A stretch of DNA of 64,000 bases. Origin: Streptomyces albofaciens JCM 4342 (GTDB lineage: Bacteria > Actinomycetota > Actinomycetes > Streptomycetales > Streptomycetaceae). The DNA lies in contig NZ_PDCM01000002.1 in the NCBI RefSeq assembly GCF_008634025.1, forward strand, positions 1,178,001-1,242,000, read 5' to 3'. Both the position numbers and the translations under genes were made by a program. Positions within the stretch are counted from its first letter, which is position 1, and the number at the start of each line of letters is the position of its first letter. This document shows positions 16,769 through 27,266 of this stretch, one piece after another. Below the pieces are notes generated by a model, which ran no database searches, had not been told where the DNA came from, and saw only the letters and a list, made by a program, of their open reading frames with translations.

Positions 16769-19700
16769 TCAGCACACCTTCCGGTACGGCACCTCGGGGA
16801 TGTACGTCTCCCAGTCCGCGCGGGACAGCGAGCCGCCGGCACGGTGGCACACGTCGGCGACGAGCGCGTCCGGCGCGATGCGGTGGGTCGTCAGCGTGAC
16901 GTGCTGGCCCGCGGCGTACAGCGCCGTGCCGTCCCGGTTGAAGGTGAGGGCCAGGATCTTGTCGCCCGGCGTCGGCAGGGCGGAGCCGAGCGGCTGCTGG
17001 GAGGGCACGTCCCACAACTGGAGGCTGCCGTAGGCCCCGGCCACGGCGAGCGTCCTCCCGTCCGGGGAGAAGGCCAGCGCCGAGACGGCCTCGTGCCACT
17101 GCTGCTGACGGCCGCCGGTGAAAGCGGGCAACTGGCCGAACCGCCGCCGGATGTCGCCGTCCCACACGGTGACGTTGCCCGTCTCCTCCCCCACCGCGAA
17201 GGAGTTCCCGGTCGGGCTGAACGCGTACGCCGTGTCCTGCCGGGTGAGCCGGCGCGGCATCGGTGTCCCCGCGGGCAGCTTGACGATCTCCCCCCTGGTG
17301 ACGAGCAGCCGTCCGTCGGGACGCAGGGTCATGGGGGAGCCGCCGGAGACGGACAGGGACTTCTCGCGCCGCCGGCTGCCGATGTCCCACACCTGTACCG
17401 AACGGACCGAGGACGTGATCAGCCGGGAGCCGTCCGGGCTGAGGACGGCGCCCTCGGTGGGGCTGTTGTCCTGCCCGCCGGCGAAGGCGGCGAGGGTGCG
17501 GTGTCCGGGCACGTCCCGCACCGCGACCAGGCCGGGGGACAGGTCCCAGTTCCCGGCGTAGTCGCCGGTCACGCCGTAGGCCACCCGCGTGCCGTCGGCG
17601 CTGAAGGACAGCACCTCGTCCGGCTCGATCCGCAACTGGCCCTTGCGCCGGGGGGTCTGGGGCGGCAGCCGCATGTCGGTGGGGCTGTCCACGACCGCGC
17701 CGGACCGGGTGTCGCGCGTCTCGAACCGCGCCGTCGGGCCCCGGGTCCACACCAGGCCCAGGTGACGGGCGTCCGGGCTGAACGCCGCGCTCTGCGCTGC
17801 CGCCGGAGCCCACCGCGAGGTGGCGGCCGCCGTGAGGTCGAGGCTGCGCACCTGATTCGCGGCCAGGTAGCGCAGGGTGCCGCCGTCGAGGACGATGTCG
17901 GCCGGCCCGTCGGCGGACATGGCGCCCCGGAAGACCGGATGGTCCACCTGGCTGGTGCGCCACACCAGCACCTCACCGGGACTCCTGCCGATCAGGAACC
18001 TCCCGTCCCTGCTGAACGTGACGGTGCCCAAGGGGGACTGCGCGACCCTCGGCAGCTCCCGCCCCGTCGCCAGTTCCCATCTGCGGAGCCCGTCCCGGGT
18101 GACCAGCGCGAAGGTCCGGCTGTCGGGGCTGAAGCGGCCGTTCAGCGGGGTGCACGACTCCCCGGCACGCGCCCGGGACCACGGCGCGGGCAGCGGCTTC
18201 TTGTGCGGTACGTCCCACAGCTCGACCGTGCCGCCCGGCGAGCACACGGCCAGCAGCCGGTCGTCGGGGCTGATGGCCGCCACGTTCTCCCATTCACGGC
18301 CGCGCCGCGGGAACGCCGGGCGCTCGACGAGGAGATGCTGGTCCCGGGTGTCCCACACCTGGATCGTGCGCGCGGTCTGGATCAGCAGCCGGGCACCGCC
18401 GGGGCTGAACTGGACGCCCCACTGGTCCGAGGCGTCCAGGGTCCGGCCGGTCCAGCGCCGCGCGGCGACGTCCCACAGCGCCAGACGGCGGCCGGTGAGC
18501 TGGAAGACCACCAGCCGGGCGTCCGGGCTCATCGCGACCGCCGTCATGGCCCGCGTACCGGGCCCCGGGGTCGTCCTGACCTTCCGCCGGGTGCGCACGT
18601 CCCAGACGGTGAGGTGGCCGGGCGCCGCGGTGACCACGGTGCGCCCGTCCGCGCTCAGGAACGCCAGGGCGTCGCGGTCGGCCACGTCGAGGCTGTCCGC
18701 GAGGGGCTGGGTCCAGGCGCCGGTGAGCGCCGAACGGGTCTCGGCGGTCTCGGCGATCCGCCACGCGGCGACGGACAGCTGCCGCGCCTTGGCCGGCTCG
18801 GAGGCGCGCAGGCTCTCCGCGACCGCGGCCACCCGGCGCGCCGCGGCCTGCTCCTGCCGCGCCCGCCCGGCCCGGCTCTGCTGCCAGGCCAGCACGCCGG
18901 CCACCAGCGTCAGCGTCACCAGGACGGCCACCGCGCCGACGACGCCCTTGCGCCGCCGGGCCTCCCGGCGCCGGGCGGCGGCACCGGCGGCGAGGAAGTC
19001 CCGCTCCGAGGCGGTCAGGTCGGCCGGGTCGGCGAAGGCCTCTTGCGCCGCGGTCAGCTGCGTACCCCGGTACAGCGCGCCCGCGTCCCGGCCCAGCCGC
19101 TCCCAGGTACGGGCCGCCTCCGTCAGCCGGCGGTGCAGCCGCAGCCGGTCGCGGTCGGCGTCCACCCAGGACCGCAGGCGCGGCCAGGCGGTGATCAGCG
19201 CCTCGTGCGCCAGGTCGACGGTGTCCTCGTCCAGGGTGATCAGGCGGGCCCTGGCCAGGCGTTCGAGGACGACGGTGATGCCCGGCGAGGTCGCCGCGTC
19301 CAGTTCGGCGCGGTCCGCGGGCCGCCGGGTGTCGTGCGCGCCCTCGCCGGGCGTGACCAGCCGCAGCAGCGCCCAGCGGGCGAGCCGGGCCTGCTCCGGG
19401 GAGAGCTGGGTGTACAGGGTCTCGGCGGTCCGGGCGATGGCGCCCTGCACGCCGCCGACGGCCTCGTACACCTCCAGGGCCAGCGTCCGGCCGCGGCGGT
19501 GGCGCCAGGTCTCCAGCAGCGCGTGCGACAGCAGCGGCAGGCCGCCGGGCTGGTCGGCGGTCTCCTCGATGAGCCGGTCGGTCAGCGCGCGCTCGACGAT
19601 CAGGCCGTGCGCCGCGGCGGGTTTGACGATGGCCTCGCGCAGTTCGGCGGGGCTCATGGGGGTGACCGGCACGGTGGTGTGGCGCAGTGCCTCGGCCAGG

Positions 19701-20455
19701 GTGCGGTGCTGGAGGCAGTGGCCGTAGAAGTCGGCCCGCAGGCCCAGGACCACGCACAGCCGGCGCGCGGGGTCCTGGGCGTCGAGCAGCAGGTCGAGGA
19801 ACCGGGCGCGCTCAGCCGGGTCGCGGCAGAGGGTGAACACCTCCTCGAACTGGTCGATGACCAGCCAGGTGTCGCCCGGCCCGGCGGCCGCGGCGAACAG
19901 CTGCCGGTGCGTGCCGAACGGCCGGGCCCCGGGGGTGAACGTCCGGATGGCGGCCGGGCACGGGCCGTCGGCGGGAGGGCTCTGGAGACGCGGGATGAGC
20001 CCGGCGCGCAGCAGGGAGGACTTGCCGCTGCCGGACGGGCCCAGGACGGCCACCAGCCGGTGCCCGCCCGTCAGGCGCAGCAGCTCCTCGGTGAGCCGCT
20101 CGCGCCCGAAGAACTTCTCCCGGTCGCCGGGCTCGTAGCGGGCCAGCCCCTGGTACGGGCGGTCCGTGTCGCCCGGCGCCGCACGGACGAAGGTCTCCTC
20201 GGCGAGGCGGTGCCAGCGCGCCGTCCACTCCTCCACGTCGCCGCCGCACGCCTCCACGTACGCGCGGGTCACCGCGAGCGAGGGCAGCTGCTCGCCGGAG
20301 GCCGCCCGGGACAGGGTCGCCACCGAGTAGGGCACGCGTCCGGCCATGTCCCGGTAGGTGAGCGGACCGGCCTTGCGCCGCAGCTCCCGCAGGTCGACGG
20401 CGAACCGCTCCACGGGCCCCGCGTCCGGGTCCAGCGGCCTCTCCTTGCGCCCCAT
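16769..20455 (-). CDS. HTH - STAND NTPase - WD40 repeat membrane-anchored protein
   Basis: A 1228-residue multidomain protein. Residues about 10-75 are an XRE-like helix-turn-helix (LTYRDMAGRVPYSVATLSRAAS). A STAND-type NTPase follows: FGRE at about 115, Walker A GPSGSGKSS near 138-146, Walker B LVIDQFEEVF near 196. Residues about 505-525 form one membrane helix (VVGAVAVLVTLTLVAGVLAW). From about 590 to 1190 there are repeated FSPDGR...VWD units of a WD40 beta-propeller, and the tail YIPEVPYRKVC is the ending usual for this Streptomyces family. Such proteins are thought to be signal-gated switches, but ligand and output are unknown. Start 20455 has GAGGG upstream; 20482 is an alternative without one. 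Confidence 0.85.
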   Translation of the reverse strand: MGRKERPLDPDAGPVERFAVDLRELRRKAGPLTYRDMAGRVPYSVATLSRAASGEQLPSLAVTRAYVEACGGDVEEWTARWHRLAEETFVRAAPGDTDRPYQGLARYEPGDREKFFGRERLTEELLRLTGGHRLVAVLGPSGSGKSSLLRAGLIPRLQSPPADGPCPAAIRTFTPGARPFGTHRQLFAAAAGPGDTWLVIDQFEEVFTLCRDPAERARFLDLLLDAQDPARRLCVVLGLRADFYGHCLQHRTLAEALRHTTVPVTPMSPAELREAIVKPAAAHGLIVERALTDRLIEETADQPGGLPLLSHALLETWRHRRGRTLALEVYEAVGGVQGAIARTAETLYTQLSPEQARLARWALLRLVTPGEGAHDTRRPADRAELDAATSPGITVVLERLARARLITLDEDTVDLAHEALITAWPRLRSWVDADRDRLRLHRRLTEAARTWERLGRDAGALYRGTQLTAAQEAFADPADLTASERDFLAAGAAARRREARRRKGVVGAVAVLVTLTLVAGVLAWQQSRAGRARQEQAAARRVAAVAESLRASEPAKARQLSVAAWRIAETAETRSALTGAWTQPLADSLDVADRDALAFLSADGRTVVTAAPGHLTVWDVRTRRKVRTTPGPGTRAMTAVAMSPDARLVVFQLTGRRLALWDVAARRWTGRTLDASDQWGVQFSPGGARLLIQTARTIQVWDTRDQHLLVERPAFPRRGREWENVAAISPDDRLLAVCSPGGTVELWDVPHKKPLPAPWSRARAGESCTPLNGRFSPDSRTFALVTRDGLRRWELATGRELPRVAQSPLGTVTFSRDGRFLIGRSPGEVLVWRTSQVDHPVFRGAMSADGPADIVLDGGTLRYLAANQVRSLDLTAAATSRWAPAAAQSAAFSPDARHLGLVWTRGPTARFETRDTRSGAVVDSPTDMRLPPQTPRRKGQLRIEPDEVLSFSADGTRVAYGVTGDYAGNWDLSPGLVAVRDVPGHRTLAAFAGGQDNSPTEGAVLSPDGSRLITSSVRSVQVWDIGSRRREKSLSVSGGSPMTLRPDGRLLVTRGEIVKLPAGTPMPRRLTRQDTAYAFSPTGNSFAVGEETGNVTVWDGDIRRRFGQLPAFTGGRQQQWHEAVSALAFSPDGRTLAVAGAYGSLQLWDVPSQQPLGSALPTPGDKILALTFNRDGTALYAAGQHVTLTTHRIAPDALVADVCHRAGGSLSRADWETYIPEVPYRKVC

Positions 20456-20580
20456 CCGGCCCTCCCGCCCGCACGCCCGCACCCCCCGGCAGCCGTCACG
20501 TTAGGCAGCCCCCGGAGCGCCCGGCAAGGAGCTTGTCCGCCGAACCCGCGGCACCGGCCGGGAGGTCCGGCGCGGCGCCG

Positions 20581-21693
20581 TCAGCGGCGGCCGTTCATGG
20601 CGCGGCGCACCTCGTCGAGGGTGGCGTCGGCGATCGCGTTGGCGCGGGCCTCGCCCTCCCGCAGCACCTGCCGGACGTACCCGAGGTCCCGCTCGTAGGC
20701 GGCCCGGCGGGCGCGGATCGGCGCGAGGTGCTCGTTGACCGCCTCGGTGACGCGCTTCTTCAGCGCCCCGGCGCCCGCCGGGCCGATCTCGTCGGCGACC
20801 TGCCGGGGGTCGCGGTCCTCGCAGAGGGCCGCCAGCAGGACGAGGGAGGACACCTCGGGGCGGCCGGCCGGGTCGTAGGTGATGTGCCGCTCGGAGTCGG
20901 TCTTGGCGCCCTTGACCAGCCGGGCCGTCTCGTCGGCGCCGGCGGCCAGCGCGATGGCGTTGCCGCGGCTCTTGCTCATCTTCGTGCCGTCGGTGCCGAG
21001 CAGCAGCGGCGCGGCCGACAGCAGGGCCTCCGGCTCGGGGAAGACGGCGGTGCCCCTGCCGTAGCGGTCGTTGAAGCGGCGGGCGACGGTCCGGGTGACC
21101 TCCAGATGGGGCAGCTGGTCCTGGCCGACCGGGACGAGGTTCGCCTTGCAGAAGAGGATGTCGGCGGCCTGGTGGACGGGGTAGGTGAACATCAGGCCGC
21201 TGACGGCGGACTGCCGCGAGTGGGCGATCTCGTCCTTGACGGTGGGGTTGCGGTTCAGCTCGGCGACCGAGACCAGGCTGAGGAACGGCAGCAGCAGCTG
21301 GTTCAGCGCGGGCACCGCGCTGTGCGTGAAGACGGTGGCCCGGGCCGGATCGACGCCGGCGGCGAGATAGTCCAGGGCCAGGTCCTCGACGTGCCGGGGC
21401 AGCTGGTCGGCCACGTCCCGGTCGGTCAGCACCTGGTAGTCGGCGATCAGCACCATCATCTCGACCCCGAGGTCCTGGAGGCGGACCCGGTTGTGCAGGG
21501 TGCCGAAGTAGTGGCCGAGGTGCAGCCGGCCGGTCGGGCGGTCCCCGGTCAGCACCCGGAAGCGCCCCGGGTCCGCGCGGATCAGCCGCTCCAGCTCCGC
21601 GCTGCGGGCCTGCGCGACGGATGTGCCGAGCGTGTCGGCGGGAGCGGCTTCGGTGGCGAGGGTGCTCGCGGTGGCGTGCGGCGTAGGGCTCAT
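20581..21693 (-). CDS. trpS: tryptophanyl-tRNA synthetase, auxiliary (TrpRS1-like)
   Basis: A 370-residue class I synthetase that charges tRNA-Trp. The HIGH motif is HLGH in RPTGRLHLGHYFGTL, and KMSKS is intact (GTDGTKMSKSRGN). Where many TrpRS have DQHAIT after the second strand, this one has DYQVLT; a change at that histidine position is associated with indolmycin tolerance in other TrpRS. The ATG at 21693 has AGGAGA 4 bases upstream. The leader encodes a short peptide with tandem Trp codons followed by a terminator, the arrangement described for the antibiotic-resistant TrpRS1 of S. coelicolor. It is therefore probably a second, inducible copy expressed when charged tRNA-Trp falls. Confidence 0.93.
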   Translation of the reverse strand: MSPTPHATASTLATEAAPADTLGTSVAQARSAELERLIRADPGRFRVLTGDRPTGRLHLGHYFGTLHNRVRLQDLGVEMMVLIADYQVLTDRDVADQLPRHVEDLALDYLAAGVDPARATVFTHSAVPALNQLLLPFLSLVSVAELNRNPTVKDEIAHSRQSAVSGLMFTYPVHQAADILFCKANLVPVGQDQLPHLEVTRTVARRFNDRYGRGTAVFPEPEALLSAAPLLLGTDGTKMSKSRGNAIALAAGADETARLVKGAKTDSERHITYDPAGRPEVSSLVLLAALCEDRDPRQVADEIGPAGAGALKKRVTEAVNEHLAPIRARRAAYERDLGYVRQVLREGEARANAIADATLDEVRRAMNGRR

Positions 21694-21757
21694 GGTTTCT
21701 CCTGGTGGGTGAGTGCCGCCGGCAGGACGGCGGGTGCACCCCGGACCAGGGAACGCG

Positions 21758-21782
21758 AAAGGGCCGTCCATTCGAACGGCCC
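21758..21782 (-). terminator. attenuator terminator of the TrpRS leader
   Basis: Stem GGGCCGT/ACGGCCC (21776-21782 with 21761-21767), 8-base loop, followed on the minus strand by TTT (21758-21760). It lies between the leader peptide and the synthetase start. Confidence 0.8.
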
Positions 21783-21806
21783 GGTCATGCTGAGCAGTGG
21801 CCGCTC

Positions 21807-21848
21807 CTACGGGGAGCGCCACCAGGTCAGACACGACGAACGATGCAT
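21807..21848 (-). CDS. Trp leader peptide of the TrpRS attenuator
   Basis: A 13-codon ORF reading MHRSSCLTWWRSP, too short for routine gene calling. The tandem TGG codons lie at 21824-21822 and 21821-21819. Ribosome stalling there when charged tRNA-Trp is scarce would let the region downstream of the peptide fold into an antiterminator instead of the stem at 21761-21782. The -10-like TACAGT (21859-21854) ends 5 bases before the ATG, so the peptide is probably translated from a leaderless mRNA. The peptide itself has no expected function. Confidence 0.85.
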   Translation of the reverse strand: MHRSSCLTWWRSP

Positions 21849-21997
21849 GGGGCAACTGTAGCGGGTCGGGCTCCGGGCCGTCGCGGCCGGCCGGATTCCG
21901 GCCGGTCCGGGCCCGTACGGGGGCGCGGCTCGTACGACGGACCCCGTGCCGTACGACTGCCGTAAGGCGGGCCCCATGCCGTACGGCGGCTCCCGTC

Positions 21998-22624
21998 TCA
22001 GCCGTCCCGCTCCATCAGCAGGTGCAGGATCTCGTCCACATAGCGGTACAGCCGCCCGGTGTCCTTGGTGCTGGGCATGACCTGCCACAGCATGACCCGG
22101 CCGTGCACCGCGGCCCACAGCACGTACGGCGCCTCCTCGCGGGTGCCGCGCACCCGCCACCCGGCGGCCTCGCAGGCGGTGAGGGCGTCGTGCAGGCCCC
22201 GCACGAGGCGCCCCGCCGGGTGCCCGGCCAGGCGCTCCGGCTCGACGGGTGTCTGCCGGGTCTCGTACAGGAGGCGGTACTTGGCGGGGTGGTCGACGGC
22301 GTAGCGGCAGTACGCGCGCAGCTGGGCGCGGAGCAGGTCCACCGGGTCGTCGGTGCCCGCAGCGGCCGAGGCCTCCGCCATCGCCGCCCGCAGGCGCTCG
22401 TAGCTGACCTCCAGCGCGGCCCACACCAGCTCGGTCTTGTCGGCGAAGTGCCGGTAGATGCTGGGCGCGGCGACGCCCGCCTCGCGGGCCACCGCGCGCA
22501 GCGACAGCGCGTCCTCGCTGCCGACCTCTTCGAGGAGGCGCTCGGTGGCGCGCAGCAGCTCCTCCCGCAGGCGCTCGCCCTGCCCGCGCGGATTGCGGGG
22601 CCGTACGGCCGCACTCTCACCCAC
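21998..22624 (-). CDS. TetR family transcriptional regulator
   Basis: A 208-residue regulator. The N-terminal HTH is LSLRAVAREAGVAAPSIYRHFADKTELVWAAL (residues about 42-73, shown in part by VAAPSIYRHFADK), followed by an all-helical ligand domain resembling the TetR_C WHG subgroup (VLWAAVHGRVML). It binds DNA as a dimer and is released by a small hydrophobic ligand. The GTG start at 22624 is the only in-frame candidate near the HTH; a ribosome site is poor. It lies between the TrpRS leader and CapA-like gene, both on the same strand but with spacing of over 150 bases, so its target is not obvious. Confidence 0.88.
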   Translation of the reverse strand: MGESAAVRPRNPRGQGERLREELLRATERLLEEVGSEDALSLRAVAREAGVAAPSIYRHFADKTELVWAALEVSYERLRAAMAEASAAAGTDDPVDLLRAQLRAYCRYAVDHPAKYRLLYETRQTPVEPERLAGHPAGRLVRGLHDALTACEAAGWRVRGTREEAPYVLWAAVHGRVMLWQVMPSTKDTGRLYRYVDEILHLLMERDG

Positions 22625-25151: not shown

Positions 25152-27266
25152 TCAGGCCACCTCGATCCCGTACTCCCGCACCAGCGCCTCCAGGCCGCCC
25201 TCGTACCCCTTGCCGCCGATGACGAAGTCCCAGTCGCCGTTCGCGCGGCGGCGGAACGAGCCGAGGACCAGCGCGGTCTCGCCGGGGCGGCCGTCCGACA
25301 CCTCCAGCCGGCCCTGTTCCGCGCCGGATTCGTCCACGAGGCGGATCCGCGCGTCGGTGAAGCCGGACAGGTCGGCGTGCGGGTCGGCCTCCGGGTCGAC
25401 GGCCGCGACGAGGACGAGCCGGTCGGCGGTGGCGGGCAGCGCCTCGAAGACCACCTGCATCGCGGCGCGGTCGGGGGCGAAGCCGGAGAGCATCCGGACG
25501 GTGCCGTCCGGGGTGCGCGGGTTGTTGTAGAAGACGAAGTGGTCGTCGCTCAGGACGCGGTTGCCCTGGCAGACCAGCGCGCAGACGTCCAGGGCGACGC
25601 CGCCGGACCAGTTCATGCCGAGGATGTTGCCCGCCGCGCCGTCCTCCTCCGGGGCCTCGGGCGTCCGCCCGGCGCCCTCCTCGGCGGGCGCGGGGCGCTG
25701 GGCCGGGACCGCGGCGTCCCCGAGGCGTCCGCGCAGTCCGTGGCGGGCCAGCAGGTCGACCAGTTCGGGGCCGCTGACGAGGGTGAGCGGTTTGCCGTTG
25801 GCGAAGGCGTGCGCGCCGGGGCCGAAGCGGGACGTGGTGACGAGCACGCCCTTGTTGGCGCCCTCGGACTGCACGGTGCCGAACAGGTCGCGTACGGCGG
25901 TCGGCGGCACCGTGTTGCGGTAGCGCTTCACCTGCACGATGATCTTGCCGCCGCGGATCGGATCGGGGTCGAGCGCGTCCACGTCCACGCCGCCGTCCCC
26001 GGACCGCTGCGTCGTCAGCGCCTGCATGCCCATCGCCCGGAACAGCTCGGCGACCAGCCCCTCGAAGGCGATCGGGTCCATCGCGAACAGGTCGGGCTCG
26101 TCCTCGCCGCCGTGGGTGACCACACCGCCGCCCACCTCGCCCGGCTGCCGCGCCGGGCGGACCGGGGTCCGCTGGTCGGGGCGCGCGGACAACTGCCCGC
26201 GCAGCCCGTCGGTGAGGCACTCCACCGCGCTGACCTGCGCGAGGTGCAGGTGCTCGAAGGCGGCGCGGGACGCGGTGACGGTGGCCAGGAAGATCTGCGC
26301 GGGGCGGCCGGTGGCCGGGTCCACGTCGTCCACGAAGCCGTTGACCGTGACCGAGTCGAGCGCGCCCGTGGTGTCCGCCGCGAACAGATCGTGCAGCACG
26401 AGCAGCACGGACTGGGCGAGCACGTCGCGGTAGGCCGAGCGCCGCTGGGTGACCGGCCGGGCGACGTCCTTGTCCTGGTCGGCCGCGTACATGTACCGCA
26501 CCGCCTTGGCCTCGGGCACGATGTCGAAGCCGGGCAGCTCCCAGTCCAGTACGAGCTGGCGCGCGGCCGGGTCGTAGGCGGCGCGCACGCGGCGCGGGAA
26601 GCCCTGCGGGCGGCCGGTGGCGTACAGCGCGGCGGAGAAGTACTCCACCACCGCGTCGGGATCGCCGTCGCGCAGCCCCCTCAGCAGGTCCTCGACGGCG
26701 GTGTTGTGGTTCCGGACCTCCGCCAGCTGCCCGGCGGCCCACTGGTCGTACTGCCGCCGGTAGTCCTCCAGTTGACGCAGCCGCTGCGCTTCGGCGGCCT
26801 GCGCGGCGTGCCAGTCGCGCTCGTAGCGCGCGCGGGCCTCCTCCTGCGCGCGGCGGCCGCCGCCGAGACCCCAGCCGCCGGCCTGCGGCTGGTAGGCGGC
26901 CGGGTCGGGCATCGGTACGGGTACGGCCAGCCGGCCGGGCGCGAACGGCTCGACGTGCTCGGGGCGGCGCAGCGCGGCGGGTGTGAAGGCGGGGGCCCGG
27001 CAGCCGTCGGCGAGCAGGCCGGACAGCTCCGCCATGCGGGCGTCCAGTTCCTCGGTGCGGCGGCGGGCGTCGGCCTCGCGCTGTCGGCGGTACGCGGCCT
27101 GCCGTTCGCGCTGCATCCTGGCCATGGCGCGCTCGGTGTCGCGCTGCTGCCGCTCCTGGTCGCGCCGGGCCTGTTCACCGGCCCGCCACTGGGCCTCCTG
27201 CCGGCGCTGCTGCTGACGCTGCGCCTCGGCCCAGACGGCCACTAATCCGTTGGAGCGGCGACTCAT
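25152..27266 (-). CDS. coiled-coil / Mrr-type nuclease / TerD fusion protein
   Basis: A 704-residue protein of three parts. Residues 1-190 are rich in Gln, Arg and Glu and look like a long coiled coil. Residues about 390-515 form an Mrr_cat restriction endonuclease-like domain: FEGLVAELFRAMG, then GDGGVDVD (near 425) and IIVQVKRYRN (near 442) give the D...QxK active site. Residues about 550-704 are a TerD domain (GVALDVCALVCQGNRVL, then SDDHFVFYNN with the calcium-type acidic residues). TerD proteins belong to tellurite/stress systems, and fusions to DNA-processing domains have been noted in comparative work. The middle region (200-380) is unassigned. ATG 27266 is used; no ribosome site is strong. 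Confidence 0.85.
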   Translation of the reverse strand: MSRRSNGLVAVWAEAQRQQQRRQEAQWRAGEQARRDQERQQRDTERAMARMQRERQAAYRRQREADARRRTEELDARMAELSGLLADGCRAPAFTPAALRRPEHVEPFAPGRLAVPVPMPDPAAYQPQAGGWGLGGGRRAQEEARARYERDWHAAQAAEAQRLRQLEDYRRQYDQWAAGQLAEVRNHNTAVEDLLRGLRDGDPDAVVEYFSAALYATGRPQGFPRRVRAAYDPAARQLVLDWELPGFDIVPEAKAVRYMYAADQDKDVARPVTQRRSAYRDVLAQSVLLVLHDLFAADTTGALDSVTVNGFVDDVDPATGRPAQIFLATVTASRAAFEHLHLAQVSAVECLTDGLRGQLSARPDQRTPVRPARQPGEVGGGVVTHGGEDEPDLFAMDPIAFEGLVAELFRAMGMQALTTQRSGDGGVDVDALDPDPIRGGKIIVQVKRYRNTVPPTAVRDLFGTVQSEGANKGVLVTTSRFGPGAHAFANGKPLTLVSGPELVDLLARHGLRGRLGDAAVPAQRPAPAEEGAGRTPEAPEEDGAAGNILGMNWSGGVALDVCALVCQGNRVLSDDHFVFYNNPRTPDGTVRMLSGFAPDRAAMQVVFEALPATADRLVLVAAVDPEADPHADLSGFTDARIRLVDESGAEQGRLEVSDGRPGETALVLGSFRRRANGDWDFVIGGKGYEGGLEALVREYGIEVA

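Follow-up and report, generated by a model that had tools for sequence, protein, structure and literature searches.

A predicted leaderless Trp-Trp leader with mutually exclusive, covarying hairpins as the probable attenuator of an auxiliary tryptophanyl-tRNA synthetase gene in Streptomyces

The window, by which we mean the whole stretch of 64,000 nucleotides of Streptomyces albofaciens JCM 4342 DNA that was analysed, carries on its minus strand a -10 box followed by a short leader open reading frame (ORF), a terminator hairpin and the gene for an auxiliary tryptophanyl-tRNA synthetase (TrpRS), which we refer to as class A. An initial annotation had listed these elements without naming a strand; all of them are present, on the minus strand, and the sequence bears out its succession of a 13-codon ORF with tandem TGG codons, a hairpin with TTT and then the synthetase. 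Its terminator stem of 7 bp was counted too low, as the hairpin holds 9 pairs (one G-U) around a 4-nt loop, and its spacing of 5 bases between box and start codon is in fact 6 (TGCCCC). Hairpin arms 1 and 2, an outer helix and an antiterminator are additional to that description. With leader nucleotides counted from the leader ATG, the features are as follows:

21860-21855, minus strand: -10 box TACAGT, separated from the leader ATG by 6 nt (TGCCCC)
21848-21807, minus strand: leader ORF of 13 codons plus TAG, peptide MHRSSCLTWWRSP; its predicted start is the 5' end of the transcript
21824-21819, minus strand: regulatory codons 9 and 10, TGG TGG
21813..21822, minus strand: arm 1 of the 1:2 stem, the last base of codon 9 and codons 10, 11 and 12 (leader nt 27-36)
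21797..21807, minus strand: arm 2 of the 1:2 stem (leader nt 42-52)
21831..21836, minus strand: 5' arm of the outer helix, codons 5-6, Ser-Cys (leader nt 13-18)
21785..21790, minus strand: 3' arm of the outer helix (leader nt 59-64)
21799..21806, minus strand: antiterminator region 2, directly 3' of the stop codon (leader nt 43-50)
21774..21781, minus strand: region 3, common to antiterminator and terminator (leader nt 68-75 in the antiterminator)
21761..21782, minus strand: terminator hairpin, 9 pairs (one G-U) and a 4-nt loop (leader nt 67-75 / 80-88)
21782-21774 / 21769-21761, minus strand: GC-rich terminator arms GGGCCGTTC / GGACGGCCC
21758..21760, minus strand: short T run (TTT) after the terminator stem
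21699..21703, minus strand: AGGAG, the likely ribosome binding site of the synthetase, clear of every hairpin arm
21693 (ATG) to 20581 (TGA), minus strand: auxiliary TrpRS gene (class A), 370 amino acids, with TIGR00233 and PF00579 above cut-off

A TetR-family regulator (21998-22624, minus strand) lies just upstream of the leader promoter on the same strand, and an nSTAND1 NTPase with WD40 repeats (16769-20482, minus strand) directly downstream of the synthetase. The window additionally encodes a protein that combines an Mrr-type restriction endonuclease domain with TerD (25152-27266, minus strand).

The leader was compared across 110 class A loci, made up of the best 80 of 532 confirmed relatives, a sample biased towards close kin, and 30 Streptomyces loci including the window copy, with some species occurring in both parts. 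A leader is present at 97 of these 110 loci (best 80 of 532 plus 30 others) and was not detected at the other 13; removal of 9 exact duplicates left 88 unique leaders for alignment, the window's among them. Detection was anchored on a TGG at codon 10, on a start codon 24 or 27 nt ahead of it and on a stop of TAG or one variant form, which makes the constancy of length, codon 10 and TAG partly a matter of construction; the picture was the same when short ORFs containing Trp codons were sought under looser rules. So detected, 95 of the 97 leaders are 13 codons long. In the 86 13-codon leaders, codon 10 is always TGG (the search being anchored there), codon 9 is TGG in 84 and CGG in 2, and codon 11 is CGC in all 86 whereas codon 13 varies freely, which indicates that the constraint at codon 11 acts on the RNA. 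Exceptions in length, from beyond these loci, are an 11-codon leader before the class A gene L196 and one of 17 codons at L153 (G303), where the class A gene is split, the Trp pair occupies codons 13-14 and 6 nt still separate the -10 box from the ATG.

In the window genome the leader is the only convincing match to the covariance model built on this family (R1), with an E-value of 1.7e-20 for a sequence that is itself one of the model's 88; the next match, at E 0.16, overlaps the leader on the opposite strand, and a second copy elsewhere in the genome was rejected accordingly. Two kinds of locus without an intact leader deserve mention. About 120 nt upstream of the TrpRS match at L009, a transposase-like sequence stands in place of the 5' half of the leader while arms 2, 3 and 4 are kept, and this locus, judged by eye, may represent a natural leader knock-out. 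L081 and L111, both class A and without a leader, have in common the upstream motif TATATCTGGA.CATCTGGTCTG, perhaps another control site.

Counted from the start codon, TAnnnT stands at -12 in 77 and at -13 in 10 of the 88 unique leaders, that is, 6 or 7 nt 5' of the start codon in 87 of 88, compared with a background of 14 occurrences in 30131 upstream positions. This register, together with the precedent of the S. lividans leader trpL2, reported as leaderless (PMC8079986), makes a leaderless start likely here as well, with transcription likely beginning at or beside the leader ATG. A WblC box was considered and rejected, GAAA at -43 occurring in 9 of the 88 leaders only and being absent in the window.

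The 109-nt leader (21848-21740) folds with z = -3.5, and none of 200 shuffled sequences folded as well. Across the 88 unique leaders, paired cells amount to 99.0% in the 1:2 stem, 90.7% in the outer helix, 99.7% in the terminator helix and 98.3% in the antiterminator (region 2 with region 3), where 8 of the 12 unpaired cells (of 701) fall at the outermost pair. The 1:2 stem (UA to CG in 7 sequences, CG to UA in 8) and the antiterminator (AU to GC in 8, GC to AU in 1) each show compensatory changes although both use region 2, and the outer helix has double-sided changes in 4 of its 6 pairs. Double-sided changes number 43 in the 1:2 stem, outer helix and terminator combined versus 8.0 in shuffles, and 9 in the antiterminator versus 0.9, with 0 of 500 shuffles as high in either case, these counts being inflated by the relatedness of the sequences; for further pair types the counts did not exceed the shuffles, of which 261 and 313 of 500 reached the observed values. 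At L053 an antiterminator pair has changed from GC to AU on both sides, and the corresponding terminator pair is weakened to U-G. Covariation thus backs two mutually exclusive structures, antiterminator and terminator, that have one arm in common.

Minimum-energy folding gave a concordant picture. With nothing masked, the terminator formed in 88 of 88 leaders and the 1:2 stem in 87; with nt 1-53 masked, to represent a ribosome at the stop codon, the terminator formed in 88 of 88; and with nt 1-41 masked, to represent a ribosome stalled at Trp10, and the RNA extending to the end of region 3, the antiterminator formed in 88 of 88. Both masks use assumed distances of the ribosome edge. When the RNA was complete through the terminator, the terminator formed even with nt 1-41 masked, in all three leaders inspected (window, L004 and L005), so the switch must be kinetic and decided during transcription. 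The scan of the window returned no Rfam family at gathering score, and a T-box riboswitch was rejected on that ground.

Anatomy, conservation, covariation and computed folds together make it very probable that the auxiliary TrpRS is controlled by a ribosome-mediated transcriptional attenuator with a leaderless leader peptide, for which start site, stalling, termination and induction are predictions from sequence. The attenuation by a leaderless Trp-Trp leader proposed by the initial annotation is strongly supported by this comparative evidence. Transcription would begin at or next to the leader ATG, and a ribosome would initiate directly on the 13-codon ORF. With charged tRNA-Trp plentiful, it would reach the TAG and cover region 2, allowing the 3:4 terminator to form; with charged tRNA-Trp scarce, it would stall at Trp9 or Trp10 with its edge just short of region 2, which, left free, would pair with region 3, preclude the terminator and let the synthetase be transcribed. 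Without a ribosome, the long hairpin of 1:2 stem and outer helix can coexist with the terminator, so the default state is expected to be off.

Of the 8 nt that follow the terminator stem, 4-7 are T in 81 of 88 leaders, but in 14 of 88 the base next to the stem is not a T and the window's run is 3, so that termination may be weak or factor-dependent. These short or missing T runs in part of the family would also suit hairpins that act on translation, with the leader governing access to the synthetase start codon instead of termination. We regard this as very unlikely, since over 55 nt separate the terminator from the synthetase's AGGAG and ATG, which are outside all arms, and the approximate distance from leader to gene, 122-198 nt at the 40 loci that allowed an estimate, is unlike that of a start-codon switch. 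A further possibility is an arrest peptide sensed in the ribosome tunnel, as might be suggested by the conserved Trp pair and by a Cys6 codon kept in 80 of 86 13-codon leaders. Against this, the outer helix with its double-sided changes uses codons 5-6 as its 5' arm, residues 2-4, 7, 8 and 13 vary across the family, and the leaders of a second TrpRS class (class B, described below) keep the same geometry with a different sequence; we consider an arrest peptide slightly less probable even than a translational switch, and retain transcriptional attenuation as the working model.

The enzyme itself is distant from the housekeeping TrpRS. Absence of a second TrpRS from the genome had been named in the initial annotation as grounds against its reading; one is present (L001), and the window enzyme is 35% identical to it over the aligned part, as it is to class B enzyme L155, while L155 and the housekeeping TrpRS are 51% identical. 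A DYQVLT motif occurs in 108 of 110 class A proteins (best 80 of 532 plus 30 others; the other 2 were unmatched by the pattern), where class B has VDLHALT in 31 of 31 and the housekeeping enzyme VDLHAIT. Class A thus has Gln where the housekeeping DLHAIT motif has His, a residue that takes part in indolmycin binding. The substitution fits, and does not prove, resistance of class A to inhibitors of the indolmycin type; from its leader, class A would be induced by low charged tRNA-Trp.

The solved structures best matched by the window enzyme are 1yi8 and 2a4m, both TrpRS II, which we take to come from Deinococcus radiodurans. These matches raise the prospect that class A is a TrpRS II partnering nitric oxide synthase in Trp nitration, with the attenuator incidental. 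A nitration role of TrpRS II is summarized in PMC9437257. For class A we judge it the least probable of the alternatives: a search of the window genome for nitric oxide synthase families found no match, the same search as a control being positive in 2 of 14 named genomes, and retention of the leader at 97 of 110 loci (best 80 of 532 plus 30 others) speaks against an incidental attenuator.

Vecchione and Sello reportedly described in 2010 an attenuator of an auxiliary TrpRS gene, which we take to be S. coelicolor trpRS1 (SCO3334). The S. lividans trpS leader (trpL2) reads MMTRTCTQLWRAA (PMC8079986, Table 4) and matches class B leaders; at L171 and L182 the peptide, (V)MTRTCTQLWRAA, agrees with S. 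lividans trpL2 as given there, the GTG start codon aside. By gene numbering, SLIV_21110 would be SCO3334, and the S. lividans leader and gene order, as distinct from the SCO3334 sequence itself, suggest that SCO3334 belongs to class B. SCO3334 is also named among WblC-activated genes (PMC7157823). On this placement, and with 35% identity to class B L155, we reject the window TrpRS as an SCO3334 orthologue: the initial annotation, which assigned the gene to the S. coelicolor TrpRS1 type, holds for the mechanism and probably fails for the enzyme, which would be of another class.

Class B leaders resemble the class A device closely. S. coelicolor trpRS1 and S. lividans trpL2 likewise have a 13-codon leader ORF, described as leaderless as is predicted here, with Trp at codon 10 and a TrpRS downstream, and class B leaders also fold into 1:2 stem, antiterminator and terminator (31 of 31 loci); by promoter register they are 13 codons long in 29 of 31 and 14 in 2. 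The two classes keep a common ruler, with the predicted start at +1, a Trp codon at position 10, the stop at codon 14 and region 2 next to the stop. They differ in the TrpRS class downstream (35% identity), in Trp codons at 10-11 or at 10 alone, in ending WWAA, WRAA or WWPA followed by TGA (31 of 31 loci), in their stem sequences and in genomic setting, with proC within the flanking stretch (up to 3 kb) at 24 of 31 class B loci and at none of the class A loci compared, which led us to reject an in-place swap of the two classes at one locus.

Among other systems, the S. avermitilis candidate trpS2 attenuator similarly combines a classical leader, antiterminator and terminator before a TrpRS gene (PMC1262725), while the Trp attenuators of Actinobacteria surveyed by Seliverstov in 2005 differ in that few genomes were compared and the term 'leaderless' is absent from the text (PMC1262725). 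S. griseus SGR_3809, an indolmycin-resistant TrpRS (Vecchione and Sello 2009, cited in PMC6804068), is likewise an auxiliary Streptomyces TrpRS and possibly belongs to class A. The attenuation mechanism has reportedly been published for an auxiliary TrpRS gene. Our literature search found no description of the class A leader, although one may exist; as far as that search reaches, what is new is the distinction between the classes, the outer helix, the ruler they share and their near exclusion described below. Leaderless polycysteine attenuators reportedly occur in mycobacteria (Canestrari, 2020); these are also short leaderless ORFs that respond to an amino acid, but with Cys as the signal.

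The two classes seldom occur together. Of the first 150 of 392 Streptomyces genomes, the window genome included, at least 27 carry class A, 98 carry class B, 4 carry both (Fisher p 3e-9, relatedness ignored) and 29 carry neither (class A among the matches listed); class B accompanies 4 of the remaining 43 class A genomes of the 392 (among the matches listed). Of at least 70 class A Streptomyces genomes, 64 have a strong R1 leader match and 6 have none. Class B stands beside class A in 2 of the 64 (G047 and G293) and in all 6 without a match (G012, G073, G082, G256, G277 and G320), again with class A among the matches listed (p 2e-7, relatedness ignored). Leader absence in these six was read directly in three (L105, L111 and L112) and taken from the lack of an R1 match in the other three. 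G367, present as fragments, and G387, at 43% identity, are not among the class A calls; the 64 count G185 as well as G223, G303 and G374, whose genes are fragmentary or split; and the class B count covers the Streptomyces genomes and not the named loci that lack a leader, L009, L031 and those of Micromonospora among them. In G185, which has no class B, the leader, at a contig end, is without its start codon; counted as leader-lost, it brings class B to 6 of 7 class A genomes without the leader (among the matches listed). We give even chances to the proposal that selection keeps the attenuated slot and not the enzyme, that two non-orthologous classes with leaderless Trp attenuators of the same ruler replace one another, and that a Streptomyces genome as a rule holds one inducible TrpRS or none.

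Class A TrpRS is present in five actinobacterial orders. A quick tree built from 81 class A proteins (best 80 of 532 plus the window), many of whose forks are weak, requires 6 changes of leader state and 9 of taxonomic order, where 4 would be the minimum. Ten Streptomyces genomes have weak R1 matches only (E 1e-4 to 1e-2), three of which were inspected: L155 is a class B leader, and L152 (coding-like) and L154 (tRNA-like before a GC hairpin) were judged by eye to be chance matches. Against 394 genomes from the taxonomic class, R1 matched 20 at E <=0.001, 12 strongly and 8 more weakly, and all 8 weaker ones were examined. L203 looks like coding sequence. L197 and L198, and by its similar start L199, are short Trp leaders before chorismate-binding TrpE-like genes, and L201 is one before trpD, these four being 12-13 codons long and from other actinobacteria; L196 (class A by motif), L200 and L202 are short Trp leaders before TrpRS genes. 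Their occurrence before TrpE-like, trpD and TrpRS genes suggests that the leader device is a general actinobacterial one.

The analysis provides a map, backed by covariation, of a compact attenuator with 13 codons and no untranslated leader expected, on an auxiliary TrpRS class, and sets class A apart from S. coelicolor TrpRS1, for which it could be mistaken. With one ruler in two TrpRS classes that nearly exclude each other, it becomes testable whether an inducible TrpRS would be retained for defence against inhibitors or for Trp starvation.
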